Shown here piece by piece: positions 40,340 through 51,533 of a stretch of DNA of 64,000 nucleotides. Each line of letters starts with the position of its first letter. Within the stretch, counting starts at the first letter, position 1. A program made the translations under genes and the position numbers. Source of the DNA: Chitinophagaceae bacterium (GTDB taxonomy: Bacteria; Bacteroidota; Bacteroidia; Chitinophagales; Chitinophagaceae); assembly GCA_003168265.1 (NCBI GenBank), contig PMSV01000012.1, positions 248,001 to 312,000 of the forward strand. The letters run 5' to 3'. The notes below the pieces were generated by a model that worked only from the letters and a program-made list of their open reading frames with translations, was not told the DNA's origin and ran no database searches.

Positions 40340-41170
40340 TAGACCTGATGCCTGATTACATTGCTATTTCCTAGTTCAACGCTGCTGCTAATGCAGGCAG
40401 CTCCCATGGCTTTTCACGAGATAACATCCCTTGATATTTTTAAATGCAATTTTTTTGATTTTGATGACTGCTTTGATGTCCTCTCATTGCTGACACCGCA
40501 ATGGCCGCAGATCCAATTCCTGAAATTAAGGGTTAGGGACGGATGAGCAGGATTACAGTTGCTGCATGTCTTTGATAAGGATTCGAATCTGCCGATCTGC
40601 TACAGGTTCTTTCCATACTAGTTACACTTCTAGCGGCGCATTTCCACTAACAACGCCTATCAGGAAGGTCCGATGGATCGGGACAGTTTTGGACTATTGG
40701 CCATATCGGAAACTTGCAGGCTTCCATGCAGAGGCTGTATTAGTTCTTGACCAGATTGCCGGAGAGTTTGTGTAAAAAGTCCATTCTGCGGTAGGTGATC
40801 TTTGCTTAGCAACGGTCCAGCAAAAGTCTGGAATTTTGGATGTTTTTGCTTGCTTTTTTCTTCCTTTAATTTCTTCGGCTCAGCTATTGCAAAGGAGAAA
40901 ATAACCGAGATGCTTGCTGAGCAATTCCTGATGTTCGGTGTCGGAATAGATCCTGTATTCATAGGTCTTCAGCATATGTTGCAAGTAAATAAAAGTGTCT
41001 GAAAGTTCCTATTCCAAAACAGTATAGTAATATTCCAAAAAAAAATAATTACCCACAGGACGGATGGAAGCCAATGAATGAATTGCAAAATCCAAAAGGT
41101 AGAAGAAAATTGCAGAATTTGCCTTTTAACTAAATTCAATATTTTGCACTCTAGTAAACCATATGCAAAG
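40340..41170. other. 831 nt without a recognisable gene
   Basis: Short open frames are present on both strands (for example 40361-40546 and 40660-40962) but none has a signal peptide, a recognisable motif or credible composition. One minus-strand fragment near 40490-40540 reads as a C-x-x-C-containing peptide (WICGHCGVSNE), which could be a relic of a decayed gene or chance. No RNA gene or promoter is convincing. The stretch ends at the GH65 gene. Confidence 0.5.
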
Positions 41171-43201
41171 ATGAAAAGAATAACTCTAACCCTGCTTTCC
41201 TCAATGGCCCTTGTTATTATCGCCTTGGCCCAGGATCCCTGGAAGATTACTGCCGATAAAATAGATCCATCCAATTATTATGGAGTCACTGTAGCCAACG
41301 GAATGATCGGCATCATCTCCTCACCCGAACCTTTTAAAGTCAAGGATGTTGTCCTGGCCGGCGCATATGATCTTTATGGAAGGGGAAGAGTCAGCAATTT
41401 CCTGCGCAGCTTCAACTTGCTGAATATGAAATTGAGTATCGATGACAAGGAACTTGGTGCCCGCAATGTCAGCAATCTGAAACAGGAATTGGACATGCTT
41501 CATGCGTCCTTCACCACTTCATTCGATTATTCCGATAAAGCCTCCGTTAGCTATACCTATTATTCACTAAGGCAATTGCCCTTTACAGTTCTGATGGATG
41601 TTTCAATTACCGCAAAAAAGGACATTTCAATCATCGGGTCCAGTGTGATGGAAGCGCCCGATGCCCTGAAAGAGGTGCAGAATTATTACAATGAAATCGA
41701 TAGGCCTCATGTCCTGATCAGCCTTCTTACATCCTCTGCAAAAAGCCCTACAGGCAAATTGATCCTTTGTGCGTCCACAACCTTTCTGTTCAATGAACCT
41801 CACGGGCAAGAACCCCGTGTTTTTCATGAAATGTGGGACAACAATATGCACCTGATGAAGTTTACAAAAAAAATAAAAGCAGGAGAGACCTATCATTTTT
41901 CAATCGCCGGATCCTCCATCACATCCGCTCAACACGATGACCCTTTGAATGAAGCAGAGCGGTTGACCATATATGCCAAATTGCAGGGCAGGGACCGTCT
42001 TATTCAATTCCACGACCAGGCCTGGGAAGAACTTTGGAAAAGCGATATTAAGGTCGATGGAGATCCCCAGACCCAACAGGATATACATAGCATGATCTAT
42101 CATTTATATTCTTTTGTCAGGGAAGGAACAGGATATAGCCCATCTCCGATGGGTCTTAGCGGGCTGGGTTATAACGGCCATGTATTCTGGGATGCGGATT
42201 TATGGATGTTTCCCGCTTTGTTGATGCTTCATCCGGAACTGGCCAGGTCCATGATAGACTATCGTTTCGAAAAACTCGAAGCCGCCCGGAAGAACGCATT
42301 TGCCAATGGTTATCGGGGCGCTATGTATCCCTGGGAAAGCGCCGGTACAGGAGTAGAGGAAACACCGGTATGGGCTCTAAGCGGGCCATTTGAACATCAT
42401 ATTTCAGCAGACGTGGCATTGGCAGCATGGTCCTATTTTTGTGTCACCCAGGATAAGACCTGGCTCCGGGAAAAAGGCTGGCCTATTTTATCTGCCACTG
42501 CGGAATTCTGGTCATCAAGGGTCGAACGCAATGGTCCCGGCCGATATGATATCAAAAATGTGGTTGCTGCCGACGAATGGGCTGAAAACGTCGATAACAA
42601 TGCTTTCACCAATGCGGCTGCCAAAGCGAACCTGGAAAATGCGACTCATGCCGCAGAGATCCTTGGTTTGGCAGCTAATCCCGATTGGATGAATGTGGCG
42701 CAGAATATTCCTATCTTAAAAATGGAAAACGGCATAACCAGGGAACATGCTTCTTATCAGGGCGAAGGCATCAAGCAGGCCGATGTGAATCTCCTGGCTT
42801 ATCCGTTAAAAGAAATAACCAGTACCACACAAATCAAAAAAGATCTGGAGTATTATGAAAGCCGGGTTCCCAATGAAGGGACGCCGGCCATGACCCAGGC
42901 TGTATTCGCTCTTTTGTACTCAAGGCTAGGCAATGGAGAAAAAGCATTCCATTTTTTTAAAGACTCTTATGAACCTAACCTCAATCCGCCATTCCGGGTA
43001 ATCGCAGAAACCAAGGGCGGTACCAACCCCTATTTCGCCACCGGTGCCGGAGGAATTCTTCAGAGCCTGTTGATGGGATTCGGCGGCCTGGATATCACAG
43101 CAAAAGGCATCATACAACTTAAATCCGCTTTACCAAAGGAATGGAAAGGGCTGGAACTAAAAGGTATCGGGCCGGACAAGAAAAATTACCCTGTTAAATA
43201 A
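41171..43201 (+). CDS. secreted glycoside hydrolase family 65-like protein
   Basis: From the ATG at 41171 the product is 676 aa and starts with a signal peptide (MKRITLTLLSSMALVIIALAQ). The middle and C-terminal parts match the GH65 (alpha,alpha)6 catalytic core: NGHVFWDADLWMFPALLMLHPE near residue 335, YPWESAGTGVEETP near residue 390, and VVAADEWAENVDNNAFTNA near residue 462, where the Glu is the expected general acid. The FWDxDxWMFP and YPWESAxTGxE elements resemble the ATHL1/PGGHG branch, which acts on alpha-glucosyl linkages. The enzyme is therefore likely an exported alpha-glucosidase. The next gene starts 21 nt after its stop. Confidence 0.85.
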   Translation: MKRITLTLLSSMALVIIALAQDPWKITADKIDPSNYYGVTVANGMIGIISSPEPFKVKDVVLAGAYDLYGRGRVSNFLRSFNLLNMKLSIDDKELGARNVSNLKQELDMLHASFTTSFDYSDKASVSYTYYSLRQLPFTVLMDVSITAKKDISIIGSSVMEAPDALKEVQNYYNEIDRPHVLISLLTSSAKSPTGKLILCASTTFLFNEPHGQEPRVFHEMWDNNMHLMKFTKKIKAGETYHFSIAGSSITSAQHDDPLNEAERLTIYAKLQGRDRLIQFHDQAWEELWKSDIKVDGDPQTQQDIHSMIYHLYSFVREGTGYSPSPMGLSGLGYNGHVFWDADLWMFPALLMLHPELARSMIDYRFEKLEAARKNAFANGYRGAMYPWESAGTGVEETPVWALSGPFEHHISADVALAAWSYFCVTQDKTWLREKGWPILSATAEFWSSRVERNGPGRYDIKNVVAADEWAENVDNNAFTNAAAKANLENATHAAEILGLAANPDWMNVAQNIPILKMENGITREHASYQGEGIKQADVNLLAYPLKEITSTTQIKKDLEYYESRVPNEGTPAMTQAVFALLYSRLGNGEKAFHFFKDSYEPNLNPPFRVIAETKGGTNPYFATGAGGILQSLLMGFGGLDITAKGIIQLKSALPKEWKGLELKGIGPDKKNYPVK

Positions 43202-43222: not shown

Positions 43223-43777
43223 TTGAAAAGGATTGCGTCCATATCGTTATTAACTATATTGCTGTTCAATTTCTTTGGATACAGGTTAGTTACTTCCTTT
43301 CTCGAAGATCAGGCTAATGCCAGGCTGGAGAGCAAGCTGGACAAGCAACAATACGATGACAATCAATTGATATCAATCAAAGTACCGGTTTCCCACCTTT
43401 CCTATTATAATACTTCGCCTCAATTCGAAAGGGTTGACGGGCAGGTTGAAATAAACGGAGCAGCCTATCATTATGTTAAACGGAGAATTTACAATGACTC
43501 CGTAGAAATGCTTTGCATACCCAACCCTGCAGTCACCAGCATCCAGTCCGCCAAAGACCAATTTTTCCAACTGGTAAATGATCTTCAACGCACTGGTCAA
43601 AGCAAAAAATCGGACCAGCATTCATCCAAAAACTTTTCTACCGATAATTATACTCTCTTAGAATCGCTTCAGTTAAGCAGGAACTCCTTCATCCGTAAGA
43701 ATAACATTTCGGTATTTAATTCCCCCGTTTCCAAACGAAGCATCCCTGTCAGTGGGCGACCGCCCGAAATTTGCTGA
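43223..43777 (+). CDS. exported protein of unknown function (TTG start)
   Basis: I do not recognise a named domain. The product of 184 aa starts with TTG at 43223 (codon read as Met) and has an N-terminal hydrophobic segment (KRIASISLLTILLFNFFGYR), so it is secreted or membrane anchored. The mature part is rich in Asn, Gln and Ser, with a beta-like region SIKVPVSHLSYYNTSPQFERVDG and a polar tail ending in Cys. No ATG start is in frame before the hydrophobic region. It is 21 nt after the GH65 gene and is followed by a terminator hairpin, so it probably shares a transcript with the GH65 gene and ends it. Confidence 0.6.
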   Translation: MKRIASISLLTILLFNFFGYRLVTSFLEDQANARLESKLDKQQYDDNQLISIKVPVSHLSYYNTSPQFERVDGQVEINGAAYHYVKRRIYNDSVEMLCIPNPAVTSIQSAKDQFFQLVNDLQRTGQSKKSDQHSSKNFSTDNYTLLESLQLSRNSFIRKNNISVFNSPVSKRSIPVSGRPPEIC

Positions 43778-43808: not shown

Positions 43809-43833
43809 CATCAACGTCTGAGTTGATGTTTTG
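43809..43833 (+). terminator. candidate rho-independent terminator before the haloperoxidase block
   Basis: A perfect 7 bp stem CATCAAC (43809-43815) / GTTGATG (43822-43828) with a 6 nt loop is followed by TTTTG. It lies 31 nt after the upstream stop codon and 29 nt before the next ATG. The T-run is short. Confidence 0.5.
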
Positions 43834-43862: not shown

Positions 43863-45188
43863 ATGCGAAAGATACTGATCATTGCTTTAGCAGTGTATGC
43901 ACTTGTGTCCTGTAACGGGAAAAAAGACTATGATGCCGTCTTCAAAAACCCTTTTCTCTATTGCCGGACCGTTTATGAATTGAACAACGTAGTGATGGGA
44001 AATAATTTTGGCCCGATCATCGCATCTAGAAACTATCTCTATGCTGCCATAGCCGGCTATGAAGTCATCGCTGCAGGTTATCCTGACAGATTCAATTCAC
44101 TGGCTGGCCAATTGCATGGATTAAATGCAATTCCCAAACCGGATGCAAGCAGGAAGATAGATTATGAGTTTTGTGCATTGCTTGCTTATTGCAAGTTAGG
44201 TGAAGCTGTTACCTTCCCGGAAGGCAGCATGAAGGAATATGTGGACAGCCTGAAGAAAATGGCTTTGGACCACGGAATGCCATCAGAAATCTACGATAAT
44301 TCAGTTGAATATGCCGATACTGTTTCTGCAGTAATCATGGCCTGGAGCAAAAAGGACAACTATCTTCAGACGAGGGGAGCGCCTCAATACGTAGTGAAGG
44401 ATTCTCCTGGAAGATGGATCCCTACACCACCTGCCTATTCACCGGCTATGGAGCCCCATTGGAGAGAAATTCGCAGCCTGGTTATTGACAGTCCGCAGCA
44501 ATTCATGCCCGAACCTCCCTACAATTTCGACATGACGGACAAAAACAGTCCCTATTACAAAGAAGTCAAATTAAGCCAGAATACCGTAGATAGCCTGACC
44601 ACTGAACAGGCCTGGATCGCCGATTTCTGGGACGACAATCCGTTTAAACTCAATGTTTCAGGTCATTTAATGTATGGCACAAAGAAATTTTCGCCAGGCG
44701 GTCATTGGATGAGCGTTGTGGGCATTGCCGCAAAAAAATCCGGCGCTGACTTCCCGAAAACCGTGGAAGCCTATGCAAGAACGGCAATTGCCCTTTTCGA
44801 CGCCTTCATTCAATGCTGGAATATCAAATACACCTTCAATACATTGAGACCTGAAACGGCAATCAACAAATACATTGATGCCAATTGGAGACCACATTTA
44901 CAAACACCACCCTTTCCTGAATATACCTGCGGCCATTGCACCATCTCGGCATCAGCAGCGGAAGCGCTGACCGCCGAATTTGGCGACAATTTCGCTTTCA
45001 ATGACACAACTGAGCTGGATTTCGGAGTCAATAGTAGGAGCTTCAGGTCATTCCGGGACGCATCCATTGAAACCCTGAATTCCAGGTTCTATGGAGGCAT
45101 CCATTTTCATTATTGCTGCCTGAGAAGCAATATTATGGGAAAGGAAGTGGGTGAATTGGTGGTGTCCAGGATAAGGTTAGCTAAATAA
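43863..45188 (+). CDS. vanadium-haloperoxidase/PAP2-fold lipoprotein with altered active site (copy A)
   Basis: This product of 441 aa starts with a lipoprotein signal (MRKILIIALAVYALVSC, lipobox LVSC). The C-terminal third has the KX6RP, xSGH and SRX5H motifs of vanadium-dependent haloperoxidases and type 2 PAP phosphatases: K322-x6-R329-P, then TCGH with C356-G357-H358, then S407-R408 and H414. Two changes stand out. The conserved active-site Ser is Cys356, and the terminal Asp of SRX5HX3D is Cys418. His358 and His414, the two key His residues, remain. The protein may therefore keep an oxyanion-binding pocket but work differently from a typical enzyme. It opens a five-gene block with 23 nt to the next gene. 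Confidence 0.8.
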   Translation: MRKILIIALAVYALVSCNGKKDYDAVFKNPFLYCRTVYELNNVVMGNNFGPIIASRNYLYAAIAGYEVIAAGYPDRFNSLAGQLHGLNAIPKPDASRKIDYEFCALLAYCKLGEAVTFPEGSMKEYVDSLKKMALDHGMPSEIYDNSVEYADTVSAVIMAWSKKDNYLQTRGAPQYVVKDSPGRWIPTPPAYSPAMEPHWREIRSLVIDSPQQFMPEPPYNFDMTDKNSPYYKEVKLSQNTVDSLTTEQAWIADFWDDNPFKLNVSGHLMYGTKKFSPGGHWMSVVGIAAKKSGADFPKTVEAYARTAIALFDAFIQCWNIKYTFNTLRPETAINKYIDANWRPHLQTPPFPEYTCGHCTISASAAEALTAEFGDNFAFNDTTELDFGVNSRSFRSFRDASIETLNSRFYGGIHFHYCCLRSNIMGKEVGELVVSRIRLAK

Positions 45189-45211
45189 AACACTTTAAAC
45201 TTTAAATCATT

Positions 45212-45769
45212 ATGGCCTACATAAAATTAAATAATGAATCCCTTCCCGGCATAGTCGGGTTACTCGATTACTCCCCTGCGACTGGCAAGCCATTGAGCGA
45301 TCTGGCAGAAGTGCTTCTTGCAGACGAAGGCAATTCATTGACAAAAGCAGAAAGGGAAATAATCGCAGCATCGGTTTCATATAAAAATGATTGCCATTTT
45401 TGCCACAGTTCTCACGCAGCGGCTGCCGCCGCCCATTTGCAACTGGGGCCGGAATTCATCGATGATGTAAAAAAAGGTTTGCAAACAACTCCTGTTTCCG
45501 ATAAACTCAGGGCGCTGCTCAACATCGCCCACCAGGTTCAAAAAGGCGGCAGGTTCGTTACCGAAGCCGATATTGAACAGGCAAGAGAAAAAGGAGCTTC
45601 CGATAAAGAAATTCATGACACGGTTTTGATCGCCGCGGCCTTCTGCATGTACAATCGATATGTGGATGGCCTCGGCACCTGGGCACCGAAGGATAATGCC
45701 GAATTCATGCCCATGGGTCAGCAATTAGCAGAACACGGTTACGCAAATGCAGTAGCCATGGAAGCTTGA
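45212..45769 (+). CDS. AhpD-like/carboxymuconolactone decarboxylase-family peroxidase
   Basis: This product of 185 aa belongs to the CMD/AhpD family of alkylhydroperoxidases that reduce peroxides using a thiol pair. The active-site residues are E49, C61, C64 and H68, in the sequence EREIIAAS through DCHFCHSSH. The distances (E to C 12, C to C 3, C to H 4) equal those of AhpD E118, C130, C133, H137. It is in the peroxidase-related subfamily. The gene has no signal peptide, so it acts in the cytosol. It sits between the two haloperoxidase-fold genes, 23 nt from the first and 45 nt before the barrel gene. Confidence 0.87.
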   Translation: MAYIKLNNESLPGIVGLLDYSPATGKPLSDLAEVLLADEGNSLTKAEREIIAASVSYKNDCHFCHSSHAAAAAAHLQLGPEFIDDVKKGLQTTPVSDKLRALLNIAHQVQKGGRFVTEADIEQAREKGASDKEIHDTVLIAAAFCMYNRYVDGLGTWAPKDNAEFMPMGQQLAEHGYANAVAMEA

Positions 45770-45813
45770 TTGTTTGATTGACTGATTCATCAAAACCTAA
45801 ATTTCATAATGTC

Positions 45814-46749
45814 ATGAACCAACTTAAGAAAGGGTTAATATCCCCTTTACTGCTGATTTGTTGCTTTTCTGCCCTCGCCCAGACCGACAATGACGCCATC
45901 CTGATGAACAAATATCAATGGTGCAGCGGGGCAACTTATATGCATTCCGGTTGGAATGAATATTGGGAAGGAACCTTCAAAAGAAGTAATGCCAATCTTG
46001 GCACAGTAACCACTCAATCGGTCATGGGAATGACCAATTATGGGATCACAAACCATCTCAATATCATGGCTTCCCTGCCCTATGTATGGTCCCAGGCCTC
46101 AGCCGGCACTCTTCATGGCATGAAAGGCTTCCAGGACCTAAGTCTCTATCTGAAATGGAACCCATTGACCGTAAACGCATGGAAGGGTCAGTTCTCCCTA
46201 TTCGGAATTTTAGGATTCAGCACTCCAACAAACAATTACCTCGTGGATTACCTTCCTCTTTCGATAGGGCTGGGAACAACGAATATTTATTACCGGCTCA
46301 TGGCCTATTATAAGAGGGGTATCTTTTTTGCAAGGGCCTCCGGAACCTATATATGGAGAAGCAATGTCAAGATCGACCAGACATCCTATTATACTACGGA
46401 ACTGCAGAATACTGACATAGTGCAGATGCCCGATCAGTTGACCTTTGACGGAAGCCTGGGCGTGTATACAAAATACCTCATTGCCGAAGCAATGGTTGAT
46501 AATATGACTACACTGGGAGGATTCGATATCCGCAAGAATGACATGCCCTTTCCCAGTAATCGCATGAACAGCACAAGCATAGGCGTCCACGCAAAATATA
46601 CCCTGCCCTTCGAAATACATTTTTCCATTGTGCTCGGAGGCGATCAGGTACTAACCGGCAGAAATGTCGGACAAGCCACCGATTTTAATCTGGGATGCTA
46701 TTACGCTTTCTATGTGAAACATCATGCCCAAACCCCCAAAAACCAATAA
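45814..46749 (+). CDS. outer-membrane beta-barrel protein
   Basis: From the ATG at 45814 the product is 311 aa with a signal peptide (MNQLKKGLISPLLLICCF ending ALAQ). The rest has a barrel pattern with regular aromatic-rich strands: ATYMHSGWNEYWEGTFKR, NHLNIMASLPYVWSQ, LYLKWNPL, FSLFGILGFSTPTNNY, FFARASGTYIWRSN, and a final strand NLGCYYAFYVKHH. It resembles the channel-like transporters annotated as phenol-degradation MetA-type or DUF3187-like, but I cannot name it. It precedes the second haloperoxidase-fold gene by 1 nt, so it is translationally linked and may serve substrate passage. Confidence 0.75.
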   Translation: MNQLKKGLISPLLLICCFSALAQTDNDAILMNKYQWCSGATYMHSGWNEYWEGTFKRSNANLGTVTTQSVMGMTNYGITNHLNIMASLPYVWSQASAGTLHGMKGFQDLSLYLKWNPLTVNAWKGQFSLFGILGFSTPTNNYLVDYLPLSIGLGTTNIYYRLMAYYKRGIFFARASGTYIWRSNVKIDQTSYYTTELQNTDIVQMPDQLTFDGSLGVYTKYLIAEAMVDNMTTLGGFDIRKNDMPFPSNRMNSTSIGVHAKYTLPFEIHFSIVLGGDQVLTGRNVGQATDFNLGCYYAFYVKHHAQTPKNQ

Positions 46750-46750
46750 A

Positions 46751-48307
46751 ATGAATCGACGTATAAAAAAAGCTTATATCTTCTATATATATATCGCCTC
46801 CATACTTTTGTTCTCCTCATGTAACAAGAGCATTCATCAGGCTACGGCCGGCCTGTCACCGTTGAACCCGGCAAATGAGGATTTAAATGCAGGGACCTGG
46901 AAATCCGTGCTATTATCAAGTCCGGACAGTTTTGCAGTTGCCGCACCCGCAGCCCTGACTTCATCCTCCTACCTGGCCGACCTCAATGAAATAATAGGAT
47001 ACCAGAAAAATTTGTCAGCAGGAGATAAGCAAACCATAAGCTATTGGTCAGCTGGCGGAGTCCTGAGATGGAATGAGATCATGCGGGACCTTGTGGCTAA
47101 ATACAACCTTCCTCCCTATCAGAACAGCAGTGGAACCTATCCCATTCCGAGTTCTGCAAACCCCTTCGCCTATCCGAATTTTCCGTTTTCCAATCCACCT
47201 TATGCTGCCCGTGCCTATGCTTATGTAAGCGCTGCGCAATATGATGCCCTTATTGCCTGCTGGTATTATAAGGAATTATACAACCGGCCCGCCCCTTACC
47301 AGGTCGATTCGGCAGTACAGGCATTCGTTCCCAAAACCAACCTTCCTTCCTATCCTTCTGAGGCTGCAGTGCTAGCAGGAGTTACGGCCGAGATGATGAA
47401 ACTCCTTTTCCCGGATGAAATAGCCAATGTCCAGCAACTAGCCGATCAGGCTGAACTGGCAGCCATTCAATCGGGTGCTGCTGCTCAAAGCGATGTCAAT
47501 GCAGGCGATGCCCTTGGCAGGCAGATAGCCGATCTCTTCATTGCACGTGCAAAAACAGACAAAGCCGGGAGTGCAGTGGGAACCCCTGCGGAATGGGCAT
47601 CCCTTATAACCCAGGCCCAGGCGAACGGACAAGTTGCATGGCAGAGTCTTGAGTCCCCCGCCAGGCCGCCCATGCTTCCACTTTTTGGCCAGGTAACACC
47701 TTTTCTCTTTGACTCAGCCACTGTGGTTACATTGAGGCCCGGGCCACCTCCTTCAGCCTCAGGCAGCGAGATGGGGGAACAGCTGTCAATGGATTACCAG
47801 CAAATAAAAAATCCTACCCGCGAACAGGAAAGAGTGATACAATTTTGGGCCGATGGTGTTGGAACCTATACGCCACCCGGCCACTGGAATGCCATTGCCG
47901 CACAGGATTTTATCGGTCAGCAATTCAGTGAGGTAAGATGGGCCAGAAACATGGCGCTCTTAAACATGGCGCTCATGGATGCCGGCATCGTGTGCTGGAA
48001 TACAAAATATTATTATTTCAATCCGCGTCCATCCCAACTAAATCCGGATATCAAGACGCTTACCGGAGTGCCGAATTTCCCATCCTATATATCCGGACAT
48101 GCAACTTTCAGTGAGGCGGCCGCAACGATCCTGAGTCATATACTGCCTGCCAATGCAGCCAAATATGAATCCATGTCGCAACAAGCAGCCAACTCCAGAT
48201 TCATTTCAGGTATTCATACCCAAATTGATTGCTCAGCCGGGACACAGGTTGGAATGAATGTAGGCAATTATGCCGTTCAGAGGGCGATGATAGACGGAGC
48301 AGAATAA
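46751..48307 (+). CDS. vanadium-haloperoxidase/PAP2-fold lipoprotein, canonical active site (copy B)
   Basis: From the ATG at 46751 the product is 518 aa with a lipoprotein signal ending LLFSSC. The full PAP2/vanadium haloperoxidase signature is present: K419-x6-R426-P (KYYYFNPRP), S448-G449-H450 in YISGHATF, and S482-R483-x5-H489-x3-D493 (SRFISGIHTQID). It therefore looks catalytically competent, either as a haloperoxidase or an acid phosphatase. Its N-terminal part is long and helical with little similarity to copy A. It is the fourth gene of the block. The surrounding AhpD-like peroxidase gene favours a peroxide-linked role, which is inference. Confidence 0.85.
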   Translation: MNRRIKKAYIFYIYIASILLFSSCNKSIHQATAGLSPLNPANEDLNAGTWKSVLLSSPDSFAVAAPAALTSSSYLADLNEIIGYQKNLSAGDKQTISYWSAGGVLRWNEIMRDLVAKYNLPPYQNSSGTYPIPSSANPFAYPNFPFSNPPYAARAYAYVSAAQYDALIACWYYKELYNRPAPYQVDSAVQAFVPKTNLPSYPSEAAVLAGVTAEMMKLLFPDEIANVQQLADQAELAAIQSGAAAQSDVNAGDALGRQIADLFIARAKTDKAGSAVGTPAEWASLITQAQANGQVAWQSLESPARPPMLPLFGQVTPFLFDSATVVTLRPGPPPSASGSEMGEQLSMDYQQIKNPTREQERVIQFWADGVGTYTPPGHWNAIAAQDFIGQQFSEVRWARNMALLNMALMDAGIVCWNTKYYYFNPRPSQLNPDIKTLTGVPNFPSYISGHATFSEAAATILSHILPANAAKYESMSQQAANSRFISGIHTQIDCSAGTQVGMNVGNYAVQRAMIDGAE

Positions 48308-48326
48308 ACATTGAAAAACAATTATC

Positions 48327-49154
48327 ATGTGGTACCTGTCAAGAGAAGAAAAGATTCATTATGCGCTTCGGCTCGCAGTTTCAATGTGTTTTATTGGACA
48401 TGGTGTCTTCGGGATCATCACTAAATCGATCTGGTGCAATTATTTTGCGGTCTTCGGCATCGGTCATGATATGGCCTATCGACTCATGCCCTTCGTCGGC
48501 ATCATGGATATCCTTCAGGGCATCATTTTCCTCTTCTATCCTATAAGAGGGATTGCAATCTGGCTTGTGTTCTGGGGTGCAGTAACTGCCTCTCTTAGGC
48601 CCATGTCTGGAGAATCATTTGCGGAACTTATAGAAAGAGCGGGTAATTATGGGGCTCCGCTTGCTCTCCTATTACTTTCCGGGTCCATAACACGGGCAAA
48701 CCTTAAAAAAATATTTCAGCCCCTTATGCCAAAAAAGGCCTTAAGCACACGCGATTTGAAGAATACCATTACATGTCTTCAGGTTGTCGTATTCCTTCTG
48801 ATACTCGGGCACGGCTGGTTAAATATCATTGAAAAGAAAAGCATCCTTCAGCAATATGCAAACCTCGGCTTCTCCAACCCGCACAATATGGCCCTGACCG
48901 TGGGCATTCTGGAAATCGCCGCCGCATTTGCCACTCTGGTCAAACCTGCAATAGCCATGCTCCTGACCCTTCTTTTATGGAAGGCATTCAGCGAAATGTT
49001 TTACCCCCATTGGGAATTATTTGAATGGATAGAAAGAGGAGGAAGTTACGGAAGCATCCTGGCGCTATGGCTCGCGATCGGTTCCTTGCATCAAAGAAAT
49101 TGGGCCAGATCATTCCAAAGGAAAAAACTTTGGACAGAAAATCCTGGCTATTAA
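48327..49154 (+). CDS. membrane protein made of two tandem DoxX-like repeats
   Basis: This product of 275 aa has about eight predicted membrane helices in two homologous halves. The first half (residues about 15-125) holds FIGHGVFGIITKSIWCNYF, then GIMDILQGIIFLFYP, then ELIERAGNYGAPLALLLLSG. The second half (about 148-265) holds ILGHGWLNIIEKKSILQQYA, then GILEIAAAFATLVKP, then EWIERGGSYGSILALWLAIG. The shared GHG, GIxxI and E-x-I-E-R-x-G-x-Y-G elements show an internal duplication. Each half looks like a DoxX/SURF4-type four-helix unit. Function is unknown. It ends the haloperoxidase block. Confidence 0.75.
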   Translation: MWYLSREEKIHYALRLAVSMCFIGHGVFGIITKSIWCNYFAVFGIGHDMAYRLMPFVGIMDILQGIIFLFYPIRGIAIWLVFWGAVTASLRPMSGESFAELIERAGNYGAPLALLLLSGSITRANLKKIFQPLMPKKALSTRDLKNTITCLQVVVFLLILGHGWLNIIEKKSILQQYANLGFSNPHNMALTVGILEIAAAFATLVKPAIAMLLTLLLWKAFSEMFYPHWELFEWIERGGSYGSILALWLAIGSLHQRNWARSFQRKKLWTENPGY

Positions 49155-50720: not shown

Positions 50721-51533
50721 ATGCTAAAAACCCTCTTTACATTATTGGTTCTGACCATTTTTCTCAATGCCTGCTCAAACAACAATGTCACAGAAGATCA
50801 GGATCTGAAAAAATTCTTTGATTCAGCCCGGGTGAATGGCTGTTTCGGACTCTTTGACAATGGGCAGGGGGCTTTTACAATCTATAACCTGAAAAGGTAC
50901 CGGGACAGTGCTTATTGCCCATTTTCCACCTTTAAGATCATGAACTCACTGATCGGCATACAGATCGGAGTGATAAAAAATGAAAAAATGGTCATCAAAT
51001 GGGACAGTATAACAAGATGGAATCCGGACTGGAACAAAGACCTGACTATGGAAGAGGCATTTAAGGTCTCTGCTGTCCCCTATTACCAGGAAGTAGCCAG
51101 GCGAATCGGAAGGGATACCATGAAAAAATGGATCGATTTGGTAGGTTACGGAAACAGAAACATCGGCGGACCTATCGATTCCTTCTGGCTGAACAACCGG
51201 CTCAAGATCACAGCCGACGAGGAACTTGGCTTGGTAAAAAAGATGTATTTCAATCAACTTCCCTTTTTTGCGAGGACGCAGGAAATCGTATCCAAAGTAA
51301 TGCTCCGTGAAGACAATTCGAACTATAAGCTAAGTTATAAGACAGGGACCGGTCACACTGAAAACGGGCGCTCTTTCGGTTGGATAGTTGGCTGGATCGA
51401 AGAAAACAAGCACCCCTATTTCTTTGTTATGAATGTGGATTCACCAGATCCCAAAATGGACCTCAAAGAGCCCAGGATGCACCTGATCAAATCAATCTTA
51501 GTGGAATTGGGCTTTTTCAACGGGAAAAAATAG
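50721..51533 (+). CDS. class D (OXA-type) beta-lactamase lipoprotein
   Basis: This product of 270 aa carries all class D motifs in order: S69-T70-F71-K72 (the active-site Ser and the Lys that is carbamylated in this class), S117-A118-V119, Y143-G144-N145, the F155-W156 pair in DSFWLN, and K207-T208-G209. It starts with a lipoprotein signal (MLKTLFTLLVLTIFLNAC), so it is tethered to the membrane. It probably hydrolyses beta-lactams or a related cell-wall substrate; the spectrum cannot be told. It is 79 nt after the LamG gene and 97 nt before batB, with its own unidentified promoter. Confidence 0.9.
   Translation: MLKTLFTLLVLTIFLNACSNNNVTEDQDLKKFFDSARVNGCFGLFDNGQGAFTIYNLKRYRDSAYCPFSTFKIMNSLIGIQIGVIKNEKMVIKWDSITRWNPDWNKDLTMEEAFKVSAVPYYQEVARRIGRDTMKKWIDLVGYGNRNIGGPIDSFWLNNRLKITADEELGLVKKMYFNQLPFFARTQEIVSKVMLREDNSNYKLSYKTGTGHTENGRSFGWIVGWIEENKHPYFFVMNVDSPDPKMDLKEPRMHLIKSILVELGFFNGKK

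Follow-up and report, generated by a model that had tools for sequence, protein, structure and literature searches.

The window analysed here is a 64,000-nucleotide stretch of a Chitinophagaceae bacterium genome (GenBank assembly GCA_003168265.1, contig PMSV01000012.1, positions 248,001 to 312,000 of the forward strand). At positions 43863-49154 it carries a block of five genes whose modular anatomy and linkage make it very probably the local version of a conserved Bacteroidota envelope locus around vanadium-haloperoxidase-type proteins. The genes lie on the + strand in the order A (a vanadium-iodoperoxidase homologue), an AhpD-like gene, BRL (an outer-membrane barrel), B (a second vanadium-haloperoxidase homologue) and DXX (a tandem DoxX-like membrane protein), with gaps of 23, 44, 1 and 19 nt. 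An initial annotation of this DNA had given the second gap as 45 nt; the five packed same-strand genes that it described were borne out, and its family assignments hold through matches to the solved structures 4cit/4usz and 4rl8, to the NCBIfam model TIGR01926, and between the two halves of DXX. Each of these protein families was already known. What appears to be new is the linkage of BRL with B, the links of DoxX-like and AhpD genes with haloperoxidase-type genes, and a clade of haloperoxidase-type proteins with Cys in place of a motif Ser. The linkage is firm, and the functions proposed for it below are putative.

Protein B and its barrel partner

Conservation was assessed in 147 genomes of the home family (family sample) and in 295 genomes of the class (class sample). 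Genes were called by a longest-open-reading-frame script, profiles were built from the same loci, and counts of haloperoxidase-type genes in genome scans are lower bounds. A first scan, with peptide patterns in which the SGH motif had no part, gave 49 loci, several of them short. The B-centred family loci numbered 52, of which 51 were assessable for gene order; in the one set aside (L064) B is split, and BRL still precedes it.

B (46751-48307, ATG start) matched PAP2 with 42.3 bits (cut-off 27.2) and 4cit with E-values of 1.9e-11 as a single sequence and 2.9e-23 as a profile. Its structural model (predicted local distance difference test, pLDDT, 83.6) matched 4usz with Z 29.8 over 357 aligned residues (2.9 Å, 22% identity), which places it in the haloperoxidase fold. 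The next haloperoxidase reached Z 23.4, acid phosphatases at most 18.4, and algal bromoperoxidases at most 17.1. The vanadate-site residues (Lys, Arg, Ser-Gly-His, Arg and His) are all present in the window B. Among 64 B-type sequences, the Lys, the first Arg and the Ser are kept in 64, and each of the other three residues in 63.

The model of BRL (45814-46749, ATG start; pLDDT 75.8) has 12 long strands, and its top match in the PDB was the COG4313 channel 4rl8 (E = 6.9e-10, 17% identity). Phenol_MetA_deg matches 3 of 12 BRL family members (best 6.5e-8), the window BRL itself being without a match. B orthologues, set off by a clear score gap, were found in 52 of the 147 family genomes, plus a contig-edge fragment in G131. 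BRL occurs once each in 53 of the 147, which are exactly the genomes that hold B when the fragment is counted (Fisher's exact test: p = 2.7e-41, without correction for relatedness). It lies immediately upstream of B in all 51 family loci (median gap 4 nt). All 15 class-sample B genes, which come from 14 loci because L130 carries two, show this order with a median gap of 10 nt. B was present in 17 of the 295 class-sample genomes, 14 of them outside the home family and spread over five other families. In the genomes examined, neither BRL nor B occurs without the other, which makes them an obligate pair.

In 30 of the 51 family loci, the five genes preceding B include one for a second barrel, OMB3 (Phenol_MetA_deg 22.2 bits, cut-off 22); a profile comparison asking whether BRL and OMB3 form one family gave a probability of 0.9%. 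Two arrangements around the pair are recorded here for their gene order. In L105 (G008) the order is swapped, with g184-BRL-B first and then an A-type gene and OMB3. At L124:2989-5668, in one other family, B, a DoxX-like gene and OMB3 are followed by RidA-like, 3-hydroxyaspartate-aldolase-like and M19 dipeptidase genes; these families were checked at L124 alone, and L125 and L127 show similar gene sizes.

Protein A and the cysteine clade

A (43863-45188) matched 4cit/4usz in phmmer with an E-value of 1.4e-117 across residues 1-439, that is, from end to end. Motif tables show it to be altered, with CGH instead of SGH and without the Asp of the third motif. The Cys in question, Cys356 of the motif YTCGHC (codon at 44928-44930, + strand), stands opposite the Ser of YTSGH in 4cit. 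Therefore, although homologous to a solved member, A is filed as an altered homologue and not as a confirmed vanadium-dependent haloperoxidase. With B complete in its motifs, the annotated contrast of one canonical and one altered copy is correct.

We aligned 171 haloperoxidase-type sequences: 4cit, 51 A-type and 64 B-type proteins, and 55 proteins found in the first scan, with possible overlap between these sets. Cys replaces the motif Ser in 62 sequences, 61 of which fall into one clade (support 0.963) and one outside it. All 170 sequences besides 4cit, with the same overlap of sets, retain both the Trp and the Lys of WxxK. The 52 B-centred loci comprise 22 with a single Cys-type A, 15 with a single Ser-type A, one with one of each, one with two Ser-type A genes, and 13 without a full-length A. 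The resulting 41 full-length A genes, 23 with Cys and 18 with Ser, have a similar gene context, and the locus therefore does not demand Cys. The Cys change is stable, yet not required by the locus. At class level, Cys was found in one of the 20 A genes read; these 20 loci were taken from 58 rows, mainly the best row per genome.

The kojibiose hydrolase gene lies within two genes of A in 24 of the 49 first-scan loci and in 7 of the 20 class-level A loci, and FG-GAP/ASPIC proteins are encoded within three genes of A in 17 of these 20, a label that is broad because such repeats are common. A is tied more to kojibiose hydrolase, to g184 and, in other lineages, to FG-GAP/ASPIC proteins than to AhpD.

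Modular gene neighbourhood

The initial annotation proposed a five-gene system and conserved synteny as its test. Across the Bacteroidota genomes the families do co-occur far above chance, and BRL with B stays together throughout; a fixed five-gene set is rejected, for the DoxX-like and AhpD genes are optional, being present in 6 and 4 of the 52 B-centred loci, respectively (window included). Within five genes upstream of B in the 51 family loci we found A in 41, g184 in 43 and kojibiose hydrolase in 21. On the downstream side, again within five genes, the counts were 22 loci for a TonB receptor, 19 for trehalase, 8 for a single DoxX/MauE-like gene, 4 for tandem DoxX and 3 for AhpD; the AhpD gene of the window is instead upstream of BRL. 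For the neighbour labels DUF3179, LacI and MFS12, and for the single DoxX-like gene, a single member was checked in each case; that of the DoxX-like gene matched MauE and DoxX below cut-off. The labels GH13, PFKB and SLC45 were assigned by eye.

Two genes left out of the annotated block are conserved more often than AhpD. The first encodes a glycoside hydrolase family 65 enzyme, kojibiose hydrolase (41078-43201, + strand; NF053734, 1199 bits, cut-off 800). The second, g184 (43223-43777, + strand), encodes a small protein with an N-terminal hydrophobic segment and no Pfam or NCBIfam family over cut-off; it lies within five genes upstream of B for 10 of the 15 class B genes. This protein without a known family is encoded repeatedly next to kojibiose hydrolase, to haloperoxidase-type genes and to AhpD clusters, and is a candidate for a shared regulator or sensor.

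The two halves of DXX (48327-49154) align with one another as repeats (34% identity, E = 1.3e-13), so the label "tandem" holds. The eight helices annotated for it were not confirmed, as a hydropathy scan gave nine overlapping hits, which fuse to about seven peaks. Against Pfam, the window protein reached 19.0 bits for DoxX_2 (cut-off 26.3), with E-values of 8.6 for DoxX and 0.0015 for DoxX_2; being below the DoxX cut-offs, it is called DoxX-like only. The DoxX model weakly matches six of seven DXX relatives (best 4.9e-5), and sequence searches returned no convincing solved relative. DXX matches occur in 14 of the 147 family genomes, and in 11 of these the gene is no more than 1.1 kb from a haloperoxidase-type gene or shares a single reading frame with it. 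The neighbour in one genome (G145) is a 129-amino-acid haloperoxidase-type fragment at a contig edge. The remaining three genomes are a clear exception (G035), a contig edge (G054) and a partial match (G046, 35%) that was not fetched. In the class sample there were six matches outside the home genome: the four full-length ones all lie within 2.5 kb of B, and two partial ones (G157 and G271) were not fetched. Depending on the genome, a DoxX-like gene joins an A-type gene or B. In G108, DXX and a haloperoxidase-type gene form one frame of 704 amino acids. This may be no working fusion but the result of a lost stop codon, because the enzyme's own signal-like segment is retained in the middle of the protein.

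The AhpD-like protein (45212-45769) exceeds the cut-offs of TIGR01926, a peroxidase-related family (85.4 bits, cut-off 81.8), and of CMD (48.7, cut-off 23). Its motif E-x11-C-x2-C-x3-H was examined in 44 relatives, where the E, the second C and the H are kept in 44 and the first C in 40. The family sample holds 94 AhpD genes in 36 clusters in 27 of the 147 genomes. At least 6 of the 36 clusters have a haloperoxidase-type gene within 10 kb, compared with an expected 0.51 (Poisson: p = 1.5e-5), a rough control that assumes uniform placement in 4.6 Mb genomes and ignores ancestry. The three AhpDs encoded directly beside a haloperoxidase-type gene, those of the window and G009 after A and that of G007 after B, group together among the 44 (supports 0.971 and 0.707). 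Several of the fetched AhpD clusters instead accompany a TonB receptor, a major facilitator superfamily (MFS) carrier and g184; the nearest NCBIfam model of the carrier is aromatic acid/H+ symport, below cut-off. AhpD is the weakest member of the block. It and the tandem DoxX-like gene are optional add-ons that join haloperoxidase-type genes in several genera.

The genome of the window carries further AhpD-like genes. One region (L116; G000:C17:330500-350000) has four of them at 338441-341880 and no labelled haloperoxidase-type gene, and also holds an MFS carrier, two g184 copies, an FG-GAP/ASPIC protein and a TonB receptor. Another (L117; G000:C21:23158-24245), on the same contig as the window, has two adjacent AhpD-like genes.

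Possible function and alternative explanations

The annotated idea of a peroxide- or halide-linked system at the envelope is a fair inference from the homology with 4cit and from the N-termini of A and B. Both proteins have a Cys after a hydrophobic N-terminus, on which their prediction as lipoproteins rests. A and B would be exported and lipid-anchored at the envelope, where they would use hydrogen peroxide to oxidise either a halide (iodide or bromide), giving hypohalous species, or a small hydrophobic compound. The COG4313-type barrels, BRL and OMB3, may carry a hydrophobic substrate or product across the outer membrane, and the DoxX-like and AhpD proteins may counter redox or thiol damage. 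Glucose, which the neighbouring kojibiose hydrolase and often trehalase would release, could feed peroxide production by analogy with Arenibacter C-21. Read from sequence and models, this envelope haloperoxidase chemistry with channels and redox accessories is a tentative proposal.

Several observations weigh against the proposal or against the breadth of the locus. No peroxide-producing oxidase was found among the window genes scanned. The Cys in the vanadate pocket of A, unlike the Ser of 4cit, should oxidise easily. The profile of B also matches acid phosphatases, algal bromoperoxidases score below the phosphatases in its model ranking, and PAP2-fold proteins are often phosphatases. Of the 15 class B genes just one has A nearby, and A and B are therefore separable modules. 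DXX is absent from the other 46 B-centred loci, and in G035 it has no haloperoxidase-type gene in the 17 kb fetched. AhpD is absent from the other 48 B-centred loci and was not found in the 49 first-scan loci, several being short as noted; 30 of the 36 family AhpD clusters, among the matches listed, lie elsewhere. Outside the family, of the 20 class genomes with AhpD, one (G384) has such a gene close to a haloperoxidase-type gene, and none of 20 further class AhpD regions fetched has a haloperoxidase-type gene, four of these regions (L138, L139, L140 and L155) having no called AhpD gene and being judged by the labels of their neighbourhood. Part of the long synteny, with a beta-lactamase-like gene and BatA, also resembles shared chromosome backbone.

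It is conceivable, if somewhat unlikely, that the haloperoxidase-fold A and B have turned to a halide-free reaction, as has NapH3, or that the Cys-clade A is thiol-based or non-catalytic, for example in peroxide sensing. The persistence of the substitution through a single well-supported clade would fit such a role, and the neighbour of A in the window is itself thiol-based. NapH3, whose entry is titled as catalysing a rearrangement, is among the matches of B. However, B keeps every vanadate-site residue, and the 23 Cys-type and 18 Ser-type A genes share a similar context, which therefore does not call for Cys.

We consider it unlikely that A and B are envelope PAP2-type phosphatases or phosphotransferases (with substrates such as sugar phosphates or phospholipids) that bind phosphate and not vanadate, the locus being a sugar-scavenging unit. 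The B profile matches acid phosphatase 7f17 at 1.2e-11, besides 4cit, and the complete third motif with its Asp is kept in all 64 B-type sequences; in addition, the neighbours in relatives include glycosidases, SusD (near A in some genomes), MFS carriers and LacI-type regulators. Nevertheless, B is matched best along its full length by the iodoperoxidase, and the phosphatases, with coverage of about 200 residues, score well below it. A is 4cit-like throughout its length, the AhpD-type partners are thiol redox proteins, and the Trp of WxxK, which has a role in haloperoxidases, is invariant.

That the genes are ordinary, independent neighbours held close by inherited order, with shared function limited to the BRL-B pair, is distinctly unlikely: the scarcity of AhpD and DoxX-like genes in B loci, the single class genome with AhpD near a haloperoxidase-type gene and the downstream beta-lactamase-like/BatA stretch kept in several relatives would agree with it, but BRL-B is kept in six families (home and five others) amid different surroundings, DoxX-like genes accompany either A-type genes or B, depending on the genome, and AhpD directly follows A in two genera and B in a third.

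Relation to known systems

The structures 4cit and 4usz are those of the Zobellia galactanivorans vanadium iodoperoxidase (Fournier 2014, as cited in PMC5064120 and PMC11871015). This enzyme is like A from end to end and has the fold of B, but it has Ser where A has Cys, and B is longer and only distantly identical to it. Partners of the BRL, DoxX or AhpD type are not mentioned for it in PMC5064120 or in the passages of PMC11871015 consulted. Zobellia raises the expression of one vanadium iodoperoxidase gene on a brown alga (PMC9296495); a gene of this kind can therefore respond to a host, although its role does not follow from this.

COG4313 channels such as Pput2725 (4rl8) are implicated in the uptake of hydrophobic molecules (PMC4493636). 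BRL is likewise a 12-strand barrel with this channel as its top fold match; it differs in its low identity, in lacking a Pfam match and in its obligate pairing with a haloperoxidase-type gene. The AhpD-like protein shares the E-x11-C-x2-C-x3-H motif with TIGR01926 proteins of solved structure (2prr and others), and narrowly misses the AhpD core-domain model TIGR00778 (27.0, cut-off 27.8). From the DoxX family, weakly matched by most DXX relatives, the window type differs by its two tandem units and its haloperoxidase-type partner.

Iodine uptake by Arenibacter C-21 depends on glucose and oxygen, and is proposed to involve a glucose oxidase in the membrane together with a haloperoxidase (PMC5064120). 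This bacterium also belongs to the Bacteroidota, has PAP2 proteins homologous to 4usz, and its peroxide is proposed to be glucose-linked. However, it is marine, the responsible genes were not identified in PMC5064120, and no oxidase was seen in the window block. By extension, the locus could be a counterpart of bacterial iodide oxidation beyond the marine genera in which this was studied; in this scheme, sugar hydrolases would supply glucose and hence peroxide, surface haloperoxidases would make reactive species from iodide, bromide or a phenolic, COG4313-type pores would import the product, and the Cys-clade A would be a peroxide- or hypohalite-gated switch and not a plain haloperoxidase; we regard this extended scheme as speculative and improbable.

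Work on bacterial vanadium iodoperoxidases has centred on marine Bacteroidota, and what these enzymes do in the cell is not settled. In the open-access literature, outside of which most subscription papers lie, we found no named system with this gene set. Nor did that literature yield a haloperoxidase linked with DoxX, UnbV, or SusD and polysaccharide utilization, or a description of the BRL-B pair, the DoxX-like/AhpD links or the Cys clade, the search being not well aimed at the Cys variant. The BRL partner in every B-holding genome offers a genetic handle on what these enzymes act upon and where, and the large natural Cys clade is a ready test of how the vanadate-motif residue governs activity. 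The conserved block suggests unstudied halogen or peroxide chemistry at the Bacteroidota cell surface. Haloperoxidases halogenate organic matter using hydrogen peroxide and halide, some of them with vanadium, and the key enzymes and microorganisms of soil halogen cycling are said to be largely unknown (PMC4926216). The locus names candidates.

Flanking sequences

A terminator-like hairpin had been annotated as separating the block from the upstream unit. Such a hairpin exists between g184 and A (43809-43828, + strand; 7 pairs, 3 of them G-C), but it is weak (z -1.54; 14 of 200 shuffles fold equally well), and the 14 terminator-like sites found in the region are not above the 10.2 +/- 3.7 of shuffled sequences. 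The conserved block does not end at this hairpin, since g184 on its upstream side is syntenic; its weak folding and this synteny rule it out as a boundary. Mobility of the whole block on plasmids was likewise rejected, since none of 18 matching plasmid records covers 80% of it; the five listed plasmid matches span 1% of the query, inside the AhpD gene. SusC/SusD were not found among the larger window genes scanned (32131-52640), so the region does not qualify as a polysaccharide utilization locus.

Downstream, a class D beta-lactamase-like gene (50721-51533; 237.0 bits, cut-off 250) is kept together with downstream BatA-type genes in several relatives, and this stretch is probably shared chromosome backbone. 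The genes upstream in the window include a resistance-nodulation-division (RND) efflux set and a hydrolase.

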